This document shows, piece by piece, positions 18,943 through 24,958 of a stretch of 64,000 bases of DNA. The notes below the pieces were generated by a model. It saw only the letters and a program-made list of their open reading frames with translations. It was not told where the DNA came from and did no database searches. This DNA comes from Mucilaginibacter segetis. Lineage in GTDB: Bacteria; Bacteroidota; Bacteroidia; Sphingobacteriales; Sphingobacteriaceae. A program made the translations under genes and the position numbers. The first letter of the stretch is position 1, and the number at the start of each line of letters is the position of its first letter. The stretch covers positions 558,001 to 622,000 of the forward strand of contig NZ_JAEHFW010000001.1 of assembly GCF_016522075.1 (NCBI RefSeq). Reading direction: 5' to 3'.

Positions 18943-19477
18943 TTATAAATAACTTGAATAAACGGAGGTTGCATTTTAATGCATGCCCGTAGTGAGCTAT
19001 AAGTTCATTAATCTGATATCGGTTAATGCAAACTATGGTATCGCGTTCGTCATCGAAATAACTTGATGGAAAGTCATAAGTGCCATTCGTGCATTGGATA
19101 GCATTGGTAACATGCCAAAAAAAGCGATGTTTATGTTTTAATAATGCTTTTATCTGATAAAGATTATACAAACCCATTAGATGAACACTTTCATAAAAGT
19201 TATTGGTGAAAAATTTCAATAATAATACCCAGTATATAGAGCGCAACATTTTGAATGGGGCTCTTAAATGTTTAATGTTGTGTAATCTGGTTCGAACCAC
19301 ATTTACCTTTATTTCCTTATATATTTTATCATAATATTCCACCTTGTAATTATCCAGAATTAAAATTGTTGGCTCAATATTATTTTGACGTGCAAACACA
19401 ACTAATTCATAAATTAACTTTTCTGCACCGCCTATAGTTAATAAATTACTAACTATCAATATTCGGGACTTAGGCAT
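18935..19477 (-). CDS. N-terminal (acceptor) half of a split GT4 glycosyltransferase
   Basis: This 180-residue protein has the classical N-terminal GT4 start PKSRILIVSNLLTIGGAEKL, including the GGAE acceptor-side loop. It ends with RLFKLFIND, which corresponds to the VIYNGID interdomain point of intact enzymes. The donor Rossmann domain is missing and is encoded by the next ORF in another frame. The start overlaps the aminotransferase gene by 8 bp. Alone it should not be catalytically complete. Confidence 0.65.
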   Translation of the reverse strand: MPKSRILIVSNLLTIGGAEKLIYELVVFARQNNIEPTILILDNYKVEYYDKIYKEIKVNVVRTRLHNIKHLRAPFKMLRSIYWVLLLKFFTNNFYESVHLMGLYNLYQIKALLKHKHRFFWHVTNAIQCTNGTYDFPSSYFDDERDTIVCINRYQINELIAHYGHALKCNLRLFKLFIND

Positions 19478-20582
19478 AAAACTTTTTAATACGATCGCAG
19501 ATATATAATATGTCGCTGTTTTTCATGCCTGGATATAATGGCAAACTTAGAATGGTATTTGCTAACTTTTCAGCTATAGGAAACGCTCCTTTTTTATACC
19601 CTAAATGTTTGTAAGCGTTTTGTAAATGTGGCGGAATGGGGTAATGTATAGCAGTGTCAATACCGTTATTGTATAGGTGTTGTTGTAATTTGTCTCGTTG
19701 CTCAGTTCTGATCACGAATAAGTGATAAACATGGTCTGCCCTGGGTGCTATATCGGGCAAACGCATATCGCCAATGTTTTTTAATTGTTCGTGGTAAATA
19801 TTGGCTAATGCCTTCCTTTCTATAGTCCAGGTTGCTATGTGATTTAATTTTACAGCAAGAAATGCCGCTTGTAATTCGTCGAGGCGGGAGTTTAAACCAA
19901 TTACCTGATTATTGTATTTACTTTCGGAACCATAGTTGCGCAGCAGCCTGGCTTTTTCGGCAAGTATGGGATTATTTGTAGTTATAGCCCCTGCATCTCC
20001 TAATGCTCCAAGATTTTTTGTAGGATAGAAGCTTGTAGCGTTAATATCGCCAAAGCTACCTGTTAATTGGCCTTGATAAGTGCAACCATGCGCCTGGGCA
20101 TTATCTTCAATTACATATAACTTATTTTTTTTTGCAATTTCCATTATGGCATCCATTTCACACGCCTGCCCATATAAATGTACGGGCATTATAGCTTTTG
20201 TTTTATTAGTAATTGAATTCCATAGTTTCTGCGGATCTAAATTGTATGTATTAATATCGGGTTCAACAGGTACAATTTTTGCCCCTGTATTTGATATGGC
20301 CAGCCACGAAGCTATAAAGGTGTTCGATGGTACAATCACTTCATCATCAGGACCAATATTTAATGTTTTTAAGGATATGGTTAAAGCGTCAAGGCCGTTT
20401 GCCACGCCAATACAATGTGCCACTTCATTATATTCAGCATATTTCTTTTCAAAGGCATCAAGTTCATTACCTAGGATATACCATTTTTTCTGATAAACCC
20501 TTTCGAAAGTCTCCATTATCTCCTTATTGATCAAATTATTTTGAGCATCAAAGGAAAAGAATGGGATAGTTAGTTTACTCAA
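19470..20582 (-). CDS. DegT/DnrJ/EryC1/StrS sugar aminotransferase (FdtB/QdtB-like)
   Basis: The 370-residue PLP enzyme converts a keto-sugar nucleotide to an amino sugar. Its motifs include GVANGLDALTISLK (cofactor phosphate site), VIEDNAQAHG, and SFYPTKNLGALGDAG with the Schiff-base Lys189. The substrate is probably the dTDP-3-keto-6-deoxyhexose made by the FdtA-like isomerases encoded upstream (24145-24958). The product would then be dTDP-Fuc3N or dTDP-Qui3N. The assignment of position 3 comes from this gene context, not from the enzyme alone. It is 1 bp downstream of the KASIII gene. Confidence 0.85.
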   Translation of the reverse strand: MSKLTIPFFSFDAQNNLINKEIMETFERVYQKKWYILGNELDAFEKKYAEYNEVAHCIGVANGLDALTISLKTLNIGPDDEVIVPSNTFIASWLAISNTGAKIVPVEPDINTYNLDPQKLWNSITNKTKAIMPVHLYGQACEMDAIMEIAKKNKLYVIEDNAQAHGCTYQGQLTGSFGDINATSFYPTKNLGALGDAGAITTNNPILAEKARLLRNYGSESKYNNQVIGLNSRLDELQAAFLAVKLNHIATWTIERKALANIYHEQLKNIGDMRLPDIAPRADHVYHLFVIRTEQRDKLQQHLYNNGIDTAIHYPIPPHLQNAYKHLGYKKGAFPIAEKLANTILSLPLYPGMKNSDILYICDRIKKFYA

Positions 20583-20583
20583 A

Positions 20584-23623: not shown

Positions 23624-24145
23624 TTATATTATACTTTTTAAGAAATTGTATTTACGTAAGGCGTTCTCTTCATCTATTGTAAAATAATAATTGAGATCAT
23701 CCTCGCCTATCACAGTTGAAAACATTTTGTGATAACGTAAAACCTTTTTATTTTTTTTTCTTACATCAAATACACATTTTTTGCCTTTCAATTCTTCTGC
23801 TGCAAAATCCGAAATAAAAAGATCTGATTTTATACTGAGAAATTCATCAGATCCGGGTTTTGCAAGCCAACTACCACTAGTGTATGTGTCATCATTAATA
23901 TCATACAATCTAACTACTCCTGATGGTTGATGATTTTCATCCTCAAATAAAAAATAATACTCTTTCTGACTTTTTTCCCGGGTTTTGTACTCCCTTATCC
24001 ATTCAACTTGTTTTTGCAAATCATCGTCTGTAGATGTGAGGTGCCGTGCCAGGTTCTTATTTGTTCGCAGATCCAATATAAAAGCGGCATCGGTTTCTTC
24101 AACCAGTCTAAAAAATAAGCCATACTTATAAACAGGGAATCGCAT
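23624..24145 (-). CDS. GNAT family N-acyltransferase, probable amino-sugar acyltransferase
   Basis: The 173-residue protein has a RimJ/RimL-like GNAT layout. There is an N-terminal YGLFFRLVEETDAAFILDLR segment, a central SGVVRLYDI strand and a C-terminal KVLRYHKMFSTVIGED region typical of the acyl-CoA pyrophosphate-binding half. The classical QxxGxG/A loop is weak, which may reflect an acyl-ACP donor. It lies between the FdtA-like genes and the ACP gene. It may therefore N-acylate the 3-amino sugar, in place of the FdtC/QdtC trimeric acetyltransferase that is absent here. The donor assignment is inference. Confidence 0.7.
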   Translation of the reverse strand: MRFPVYKYGLFFRLVEETDAAFILDLRTNKNLARHLTSTDDDLQKQVEWIREYKTREKSQKEYYFLFEDENHQPSGVVRLYDINDDTYTSGSWLAKPGSDEFLSIKSDLFISDFAAEELKGKKCVFDVRKKNKKVLRYHKMFSTVIGEDDLNYYFTIDEENALRKYNFLKSII

Positions 24146-24567
24146 TATTGTGCTTTATACTCTTTAAATATGACGTAATCTCTTATATAATCACTTTCGT
24201 TATATAATTCCGAAGCCAGCACCAGACAAATAGCACCTGATGAAAAATTTGATATATCCCGCCATATCCCAGGTTTAATATGCAATCCTAAATAGGGACG
24301 ATTTAACTGTACGGTTTTTTTATTGACACCGTCGTCAACAGTAATATCAAAACTGCCGCTGGCAGCTACAATAAACTGCTCCAAATTTCTATGTCCGTGG
24401 GCTGCTCTTGATTCACCACCGGGTATATCATATAAATAGTAAACCCGCTTTACAGCAAATGGTACATGGATGTTATTTTCAACGGGTGTAATATTACCTG
24501 CGCGATTGTGTATTCTGCTCAAATGAATAATATTACAATCAAAAACTGTACTTTTTGCGCTATCCAT
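24145..24567 (-). CDS. FdtA/QdtA-like dTDP-sugar 3,4-ketoisomerase, copy with HxH
   Basis: This 140-residue cupin belongs to the FdtA/WxcM-C-like family. Members isomerise dTDP-4-keto-6-deoxyglucose to a 3-keto sugar. It keeps SRAAHGHRNLEQF, where H-x-H matches the active-site histidines of FdtA. It is tandem with a paralogue sharing the same strand order (SGSFD, LNRPYLGLHI, IWRDISNFSS). The start overlaps the paralogue's stop by 8 bp and its stop overlaps the GNAT start. Fuc3N versus Qui3N outcome cannot be read from the sequence. Confidence 0.82.
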   Translation of the reverse strand: MDSAKSTVFDCNIIHLSRIHNRAGNITPVENNIHVPFAVKRVYYLYDIPGGESRAAHGHRNLEQFIVAASGSFDITVDDGVNKKTVQLNRPYLGLHIKPGIWRDISNFSSGAICLVLASELYNESDYIRDYVIFKEYKAQ

Positions 24568-24958
24568 TTTTTATTCGGGTGAATTTTTCAAAATTCCGGA
24601 TGTAGTCGTTTTCGTCATAATTCTGATCAGCCAATATCATCGCAAGTGAATTGGTAGAAAAGTTTTCCAATTCACGCCACATCATCTTCGGAATATATAA
24701 ACCATAATACGACCGGTTTAAATGAAATCTTATTTCCTTATCTCCATCATGCAAAACCACATCAAAACTCCCGCTTAATGCAACAATAAACTCCTGTAGA
24801 TTGCCATAAGCATGTCCACCGCGCCGTTCGCCCCCCGGTACGTCATATATCCAGTACGTGCGTTCAATGCTGAAAGGGATATGATTATTTTCCTCGATAA
24901 ATGACAAGTTTCCCCTGTCATCTAAAAACTTGGGTAAATGTATAATTCGAGGCTCCAT
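24560..24958 (-). CDS. FdtA-like cupin, copy with His-to-Tyr change
   Basis: The 132-residue paralogue of the neighbouring ketoisomerase has the same cupin core (ALSGSFDVVLHDG, LNRSYYGLYIPKMMWRE). Its active-site block reads RRGGHAYGNLQEF, so the second His of the usual H-x-H pair is Tyr. It could have a different product stereochemistry or a non-catalytic or partner role. Its start shares one base with the stop of the ABC ATPase gene. The duplication looks old, since the two differ widely outside the core motifs. Confidence 0.75.
   Translation of the reverse strand: MEPRIIHLPKFLDDRGNLSFIEENNHIPFSIERTYWIYDVPGGERRGGHAYGNLQEFIVALSGSFDVVLHDGDKEIRFHLNRSYYGLYIPKMMWRELENFSTNSLAMILADQNYDENDYIRNFEKFTRIKNG

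Follow-up and report, generated by a model that had tools for sequence, protein, structure and literature searches.

An eight-gene locus of Mucilaginibacter segetis joins paired FdtA-type isomerases to a putative acyl-building cassette for a 3-amino sugar

Introduction

The 3,5-dihydroxyhexanoyl group of the Flavobacterium psychrophilum O-polysaccharide is proposed to be made and transferred by an acyl carrier protein specific to this polysaccharide (ACP; wfpD) and two 3-ketoacyl-ACP synthases (KAS; wfpC and wfpE), with wfpF as the reductase and wfpG as the PglD-like transferase (Cisar, Bush and Wiens 2019, PMC6519341). For an N-(3-hydroxy-1-oxobutyl) group, the Pseudomonas syringae viosamine island (vioS, vioR, acp, vioB) is described as encoding one KAS III together with a reductase, an ACP and a transferase; a reductase mutant lacked the modified viosamine (PMC3927599). 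FdhC, named in work on Hafnia, is described as a 3-hydroxybutanoyltransferase that converts 3-amino-3,6-dideoxygalactose (Fuc3N) to Fuc3N(R3Hb), and in Hafnia PCM1211 it accompanies rmlA and fdtAB (PMC4869667). For the sugar 3,4-ketoisomerases FdtA and QdtA, His49 and His51 are called strictly conserved, an Arg at position 95 is given as a feature of the retaining isomerases, and FdtA is described as a domain-swapped dimer of one protein (PMC2943079). Here, we analyzed a 64,000-nucleotide stretch of Mucilaginibacter segetis DNA (NCBI RefSeq assembly GCF_016522075.1, contig NZ_JAEHFW010000001.1, positions 558,001 to 622,000 of the forward strand; hereafter the window), in which eight adjoining genes encode two FdtA-like proteins, a GNAT-family transferase, an ACP, two KAS III enzymes, a short-chain dehydrogenase/reductase (SDR) and an aminotransferase. 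This run probably directs the synthesis of a thymidine diphosphate (dTDP)-linked 3-amino-3,6-dideoxyhexose whose amine receives a short hydroxyacyl chain assembled on the ACP that the run itself encodes. Its acyl-building half is of an already known kind; what differs is the predicted acceptor and the transferase. An earlier sequence-only reading of the same window, which proposed a chain-building module embedded in an amino-sugar pathway, is supported in outline.

Results and discussion

The eight-gene run

The eight open reading frames (ORFs) touch or overlap on the minus strand from 24958 down to 19470, with intergenic distances of -8, -1, 6, 0, -8, 0 and 1 bases. In gene order they are as follows.

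24560..24958, minus strand: FdtA1 (T1 type), 3,4-ketoisomerase-like cupin (PF05523, E 3.9e-51); Arg15 and His49 kept, Tyr replacing the catalytic His51, Arg95
24145..24567, minus strand: FdtA2 (T2 type), 3,4-ketoisomerase-like cupin (PF05523, E 2.1e-49); His49 and His51 kept, Ala replacing Arg15, Arg95
23624..24145, minus strand: FdhC-like GNAT, predicted N-acyltransferase (PF13302; PDB 5kta FdhC, E 2.9e-27)
23381..23617, minus strand: dedicated ACP, predicted phosphopantetheine site Ser36 (weak NCBIfam ACP matches)
22322..23380, minus strand: KAS III-1 (KAS1), predicted second (extending) condensing enzyme (PF08541/PF08545)
21589..22329, minus strand: SDR, predicted 3-ketoacyl-ACP reductase, Ser138/Tyr152/Lys156 (PF13561/PF00106; NCBIfam FabG models below cut-off)
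20584..21588, minus strand: KAS III-2 (KAS2), predicted priming condensing enzyme (PF08541/PF08545; NF006829 above cut-off)
19470..20582, minus strand: QdtB-like pyridoxal phosphate aminotransferase, predicted maker of the 3-amino sugar (PF01041, E 2.2e-118; PDB 3frk QdtB, E 2.4e-124)

Across the run, Pfam assigns FdtA twice, GNAT, ACP_syn_III twice, SDR and DegT. The ACP has no Pfam match and its best NCBIfam ACP match (E 8.4e-5) is below cut-off; its assignment is based on these weak matches, its place in the run and the presence of Ser36 in 14/14 homologues. The contiguous module and intact KAS triads described by the sequence-only reading were both confirmed, with every ORF lying where it had been placed and Cys-His-Asn complete in 11/11 compared KAS1 proteins (Cys119/His267/Asn297) and 13/13 compared KAS2 proteins (Cys114/His260/Asn290). 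The SDR residues Ser/Tyr/Lys are present in 12/13 compared loci, the thirteenth (contig L051) ending at a contig edge, and Lys189 of the aminotransferase is kept in 13/13. Since KAS2 is the only one of the eight proteins that exceeds an NCBIfam cut-off, only family-level names are safe for the run. A separate dehydratase or enoyl reductase gene does not occur within the eight genes, as had been noted before; the best Pfam family of the SDR, PF13561, is named enoyl-ACP reductase and is a broad SDR family.

Conservation of the gene order and a probable acyl slot

The run was compared with 149 genomes of the genus and 395 genomes of the phylum, and the window is included in the genus counts that follow. 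The GNAT was found in 13/149 genus genomes. FdtA occurs in 49/149, of which 22 carry two adjacent matches, and all 22 adjacent-pair loci were inspected. In 13 of them the GNAT and ACP lie between FdtA2 and the aminotransferase, and in all 13 of these loci FdtA1-FdtA2-GNAT-ACP-...-KAS2-aminotransferase stand side by side, which is the co-occurrence that the sequence-only reading had expected and whose absence would have refuted it. The full GNAT-ACP-KAS1-SDR-KAS2 series is present in 10/13, Mucilaginibacter gossypiicola being one bearer of the full cassette, and the order is partly kept in the Dysgonamonadaceae contig L051; the eight-gene arrangement is therefore more than chance.

KAS2 is present in 13/13 GNAT loci and KAS1 is absent from three. 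Loci L285 and L288 have GNAT-ACP-SDR-KAS2 without KAS1, and L292 has GNAT-ACP-KAS2 without KAS1 and SDR, the distances remaining where genes are missing being 25, 26 and 33 bases, respectively. No close KAS1 was found elsewhere in these three genomes, the best matches being 31 to 36% identical. In a tree of KAS2 plus the aminotransferase, L285 pairs with the full locus L291 (support 99) and L288 with the full locus L293 (98), indicating repeated loss, or gain, of KAS1. A tree of FdtA, GNAT and ACP likewise sets L285 among full loci, but with a different sister, and is weak at L288 (52).

In the other adjacent-pair loci, the place between FdtA2 and the aminotransferase is taken by a single transferase of 183 to 186 amino acids (6/22; L302 and L303 assigned by Pfam hexapeptide matches, and L304, L305, L307 and L310 by 53 to 65% identity to these two), by three other genes (2/22) or by no gene (1/22). 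L303 is the cleanest exchange: FdtA1 (78%), FdtA2 (79%), the aminotransferase (63%), the Wzt-kind ATPase and the two-ORF transferase that flank the run (see below) are all retained, and the slot holds one 185-residue hexapeptide (left-handed-beta-helix) protein related to 7s43 and 4mzu. The stretch from FdtA2 to the aminotransferase thus reads as an exchangeable acyl slot.

Other contents were also seen in this position. The slot of L306 (5500-8088) contains an epimerase-family and a HAD-family protein along with one that Pfam does not match, and that of L308 (8183-10771) has three genes of similar sizes; the genes of L308, and those of L312 (below), were placed by size, not by Pfam. MaoC, a hexapeptide transferase, an ACP and a KAS occupy the slot in L145 (7527-13376), and an HpcH/HpaI aldolase and MaoC that in L148 (367-5157). 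In L194 and L204, KAS-like and other genes follow the FdtA pair; these were not counted as ACP couplings.

Two FdtA-type proteins with complementary residue losses

The designation "two FdtA-like isomerases" in the sequence-only reading stands as to family and not as to function. FdtA1 and FdtA2 (44% identical) share the PF05523 family (both E < 1e-48), fold and His49 with FdtA/QdtA, and Arg95 with the retaining members; unlike the described enzymes they are two proteins, the first without His51 and the second without Arg15, and these complementary losses mean that they are not equal isomerases. The histidines called strictly conserved are both present in FdtA2. FdtA1 has Tyr51 in 14/14 compared loci and for this reason is not classed as a stand-alone FdtA/QdtA member.

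This pattern extends well beyond the window. PF05523 occurs in 89/395 phylum genomes, and 92 neighbourhoods of the listed places were fetched; 27 adjacent pairs from these neighbourhoods, the window and four named loci gave 32 pairs. The first protein keeps Arg15 and His49 and has lost His51 in 32/32, and the second keeps His49 and His51 in 32/32, has lost Arg15 in 31/32 and has Ala instead of Arg at position 95 in 10/32. With 18 further genus pairs (9 + 9) of the same pattern the set reaches 50 pairs (L286, L287 and L289 duplicate L035, L036 and L037, and each was counted once), in which the first protein lacks His51 and keeps Arg15 and His49 in 50/50 and the second lacks Arg15 in 49/50, L185 being the sole exception. 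Outside adjacent pairs there are 70 FdtA genes, 51 of them with both Arg15 and His51 and 67 with His51; 16 lack Arg15 and three lack His51. The three are L192, a first-type gene separated from its partner by 835 bases, L256, which is interrupted and was represented by its matched piece only, and L268, a weak match.

The two types also occur as natural fusions. Two FdtA domains were found in 119 of the best 120 of 7999 proteins; the ranking by whole-protein score favours two-domain proteins, so the list shows that fusions exist in number and not how frequent they are. In these fusions the T1-like half comes first, as in the gene pairs. The N-terminal halves have Arg15 in 119/119, His51 in 0/119 and Tyr at position 49 in 3/119, and the C-terminal halves have His51 in 119/119 and Arg15 in 7/119. 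Sixty-six of the 119 fusions were included in the model alignment and 30 in the tree. In this tree of 212 domains, first genes and N-terminal halves form one clade (71/71, local support 0.992) and second genes and C-terminal halves another (71/71, support 0.969), each additionally holding one L192 gene and no other. A structure model was made for a fused relative (predicted local distance difference test, pLDDT, 92.6; predicted template-modelling score, pTM, 0.89), in which both halves align individually with an entire crystal subunit (QdtA, 135 residues, 2.0 Å; WlaRB, 131 residues, 1.3 Å) and Arg15 is located just ahead of the second strand, where the swapped strands start.

FdtA1 and FdtA2 thus appear to behave as an obligate pair, and the residue, fusion and clade patterns fit a two-part isomerase. 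Whether the two proteins share one active site is a closely balanced call. They may instead be two independent enzymes, or an active FdtA2 beside a decayed or regulatory FdtA1, a possibility to which we give appreciable weight while holding it doubtful. FdtA2 retains His49 and His51, and the 16 unpaired genes without Arg15 all have His51. The solved QdtA was made as a Y17R/R97H mutant according to its structure title, so its own residue at the Arg15 place is Tyr and Arg15 is not needed in every member of the family; moreover, Arg15 persists in the second genes of L185 and L192 and in the few fusion C-terminal halves mentioned above. FdtA2 alone might therefore work, which weakens the case for a shared site. 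A decayed first copy would have no need of the Arg15 and His49 that T1 keeps in every pair (the Tyr49 of three fusions being the exception), and in the set examined the pair is unbroken, with two complete clades whose sole extras are the L192 genes and with the pair order retained in the fusions. We tentatively propose, at a strength close to even, an obligate heteromeric 3,4-ketoisomerase in which strands would swap, FdtA1 giving Arg15 and FdtA2 giving His49/His51 to one complete site per pair, and which would head a plug-in locus whose slot takes anything from one acetyltransferase up to a chain builder of five genes, so that the side group would be adjusted one gene at a time. Among the papers listed by a literature search, none dealt with FdtA pairs or fusions or with an ACP cassette coupled to FdtA, which is weak evidence because most subscription journals were outside its coverage.

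The predicted sugar acceptor and acyltransferase

The closest solved relative of the GNAT is FdhC (5kta_A, E 2.9e-27 over residues 10-159), the next being PseH (E 0.0022). FdhC is a clear sequence relative and gives a precedent for the earlier suggestion that a GNAT replaces FdtC/QdtC; in contrast to the window, a dedicated ACP/KAS/SDR set is not named with FdhC in the portions of PMC4869667 that concern it. The aminotransferase, which has the catalytic Lys, had been called FdtB-like; its best solved relative is QdtB (PDB 3frk, E 2.4e-124). The QdtB-like aminotransferase, FdtA-type isomerases and FdhC-like GNAT together point to a 3-amino-3,6-dideoxyhexose as the acceptor, in line with the sequence-only reading, which is amended here as to the preferred sugar. 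Arg95 is found in both FdtA1 and FdtA2, as in 5tpu (by its title the WlaRB TDP-quinovose 3,4-ketoisomerase), and because of this residue and the QdtB-like aminotransferase the sugar is probably 3-amino-3,6-dideoxyglucose (Qui3N) rather than Fuc3N. Fuc3N, as the FdtA name would imply, was set aside on the same two grounds, which favour Qui3N without proving it. The Qui3N call is weakened by the Arg15 that FdtA1 retains as the inverting FdtA does, and this is tempered by the Arg at position 15 that the quinovose-type WlaRB also has.

Predicted pathway and chain length

RmlA and RmlB, whose genes lie in other parts of the genome (469.8 bits against a cut-off of 360.65, and 474.5 against 365.1), would provide dTDP-4-keto-6-deoxyglucose. 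FdtA1 and FdtA2 would jointly function as a single 3,4-ketoisomerase that probably keeps the gluco form, and the QdtB-like enzyme would aminate C3. On the acyl side, the chain would begin with condensation of an acetyl starter and malonyl-ACP by KAS2, and reduction by the SDR would give 3-hydroxybutyryl-ACP; a second unit would then come from KAS1, and a second reduction would yield 3,5-dihydroxyhexanoyl-ACP. The FdhC-like GNAT would move the chain from the ACP to the sugar amine, and the acylated sugar would enter a surface polysaccharide. Because none of the 13 loci lacks KAS2, the priming role is proposed for this enzyme and the extending role for KAS1. Distinguishing KAS1 from KAS2 through CoA-binding residues gave no contrast and was not used.

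A product limited to 3-hydroxybutyryl, with one KAS priming and the other being a spare or a partner subunit, is unlikely, although FdhC in print is a 3-hydroxybutanoyltransferase and L285 and L288 would need to function with one KAS. KAS1 is only 33% identical to KAS2, its triad is intact in every compared protein and it is kept in 10/13 loci, and the published two-KAS set accompanies a six-carbon chain (PMC6519341).

Several observations weigh against the proposed pathway. The order of substrates for KAS1 and KAS2 derives solely from which KAS can be missing. The SDR, earlier called FabG-like, belongs to the right family and is below every curated FabG NCBIfam cut-off; its best NCBIfam match is a glucose 1-dehydrogenase subfamily (177.7 against 215 bits), with the FabG models lower, so the label is a family-level call. 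KAS1, the GNAT and the aminotransferase are likewise below NCBIfam cut-offs. FdhC-like GNAT matches also occur without the cassette, in three phylum genomes besides the window (of 395): L193 (G114) has the GNAT near an FdtA pair, without an ACP, KAS or SDR match; L300 (G114) likewise lacks all three; L299 (G181) has a weak ACP-like match ~2.9 kb from the GNAT, without KAS or SDR; and the match in G073 is weak. Such GNATs without an ACP cassette make coenzyme A (CoA) possible as the acyl donor. Finally, FdtA (89/395) and KAS1-type proteins (36/395) mostly occur apart.

L193, L299 and L300 also rule out the GNAT as an exclusive marker of the ACP cassette. In L299 (3847-12393) the GNAT adjoins asparagine-synthase, NAD-synthase-family and AMP-binding genes; an MBOAT protein and the weak ACP-like match lie close by, and this stretch has no FdtA match.

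The ACP cassette in other settings

KAS1 matches at E <= 1e-50, which include KAS2-like proteins, were those found in the 36 phylum genomes. Among the best 80 KAS1 loci of the matches listed, some of them on short contigs, FdtA adjoins in four, three from Mucilaginibacter and the Dysgonamonadaceae contig L051, and in a fifth, L045, an FdtA domain is found in a long frame ~6 kb off. With FdtA adjoining in only 4/80, the ACP cassette appears to travel widely and the FdtA coupling to be a minority home. Within the genus, the cassette has another home in L311, where a PglD-like protein, ACP, KAS1 and SDR stand with a Rieske oxygenase and KAS2, and L312 has the same layout judged by gene sizes.

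Cassettes of this kind have many other neighbours in Bacteroidota, as would be expected if the product were a lipid or some other small molecule with no link to the amino sugar and the cassette stood in this operon by accident. That explanation is very improbable: in L303 a sugar-type single hexapeptide transferase occupies the place of the cassette, and in L311, of the same genus, the cassette adjoins a PglD-like transferase.

The sequence-only reading had named a 3,5-dihydroxyhexanoyl amide from F. psychrophilum; this amide does exist, and the enzymes proposed for it form the same set (PMC6519341). By the published description, which served for this comparison because none of 120 listed entries named an F. 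psychrophilum sequence, the window shares with wfpC-wfpG an ACP, two KAS III enzymes and an SDR, with active residues intact and the reductase matching at family level. It differs in the transferase, which is PglD-like (hexapeptide) in F. psychrophilum and a GNAT in the window, and in the acceptor, UDP-Qui2NAc4N there and a predicted dTDP-3-amino sugar here. The PglE/PglF-like route to a 4-amino acceptor does not fit the window, where the neighbours are FdtA-like and QdtB-like. The P. syringae island differs in having a single KAS, a 4-amino sugar and a flagellin glycan (PMC3927599). The ACP-amino-sugar coupling, put forward earlier as the most distinctive system of the window, is indeed conserved; the cassette is known and usually found elsewhere, and the FdtA pair is the most distinctive part.

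Rieske oxygenases were seen within PglD-type ACP-KAS-SDR-KAS cassettes at L038:11053-12141, L084:8681-9769 and L311:9372-10448. Such cassettes occur in Flavobacterium and in the genus of the window, and the oxygenase suggests a further oxidised acyl chain.

Surroundings of the run

The run is flanked by the following genes.

24958..26226, minus strand: Wzt-kind ABC transporter ATPase, conserved upstream gene (PF00005; Wzt-type NCBIfam below cut-off)
18935..19477, minus strand: two-ORF glycosyltransferase-like protein, N-terminal half, conserved downstream gene (without Pfam match)
18397..18942, minus strand: two-ORF glycosyltransferase-like protein, C-terminal half (PF00534 below cut-off)

Upstream of the Wzt-like ATPase are a glycosyltransferase, a NusG-like protein, a Wzz/GNVR/AAA-domain protein and a polysaccharide export protein, and glycosyltransferase-like proteins lie downstream of the run; the region is evidently a surface polysaccharide locus. 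The Wzt-kind ATPase and both glycosyltransferase-like half-ORFs are present in the 12 other GNAT loci and in L303. The split of the glycosyltransferase-like protein at 18397-19477 into two overlapping ORFs is retained in the same loci, indicating a conserved two-part transferase and not a frameshift. Within 24958-27414 of the window, the Wzt-like ATPase has no adjoining Wzm-like permease gene; a 286-residue protein at the corresponding place in L303 is Wzm-permease-like by eye, and a 287-residue ABC2_membrane protein is located far off (G000:C3:302259). An MBOAT O-acyltransferase adjoins a protein without Pfam match at 10870-13370 of the window, so the polysaccharide may be O-acylated too.

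Significance

The FdtA pair calls for caution in annotating each such gene as a working isomerase. If the pair is a shared-site enzyme, it would give a two-protein version of what is described as a homodimeric enzyme. The slot contents found in the genus, namely a predicted acetyltransferase, ACP with KAS2, the addition of the SDR and the addition of KAS1, form a natural series for product comparison, which makes the chain-length idea testable. If the proposed reading is true, surface sugars would acquire different side groups through exchange of a block of genes, not by point changes.

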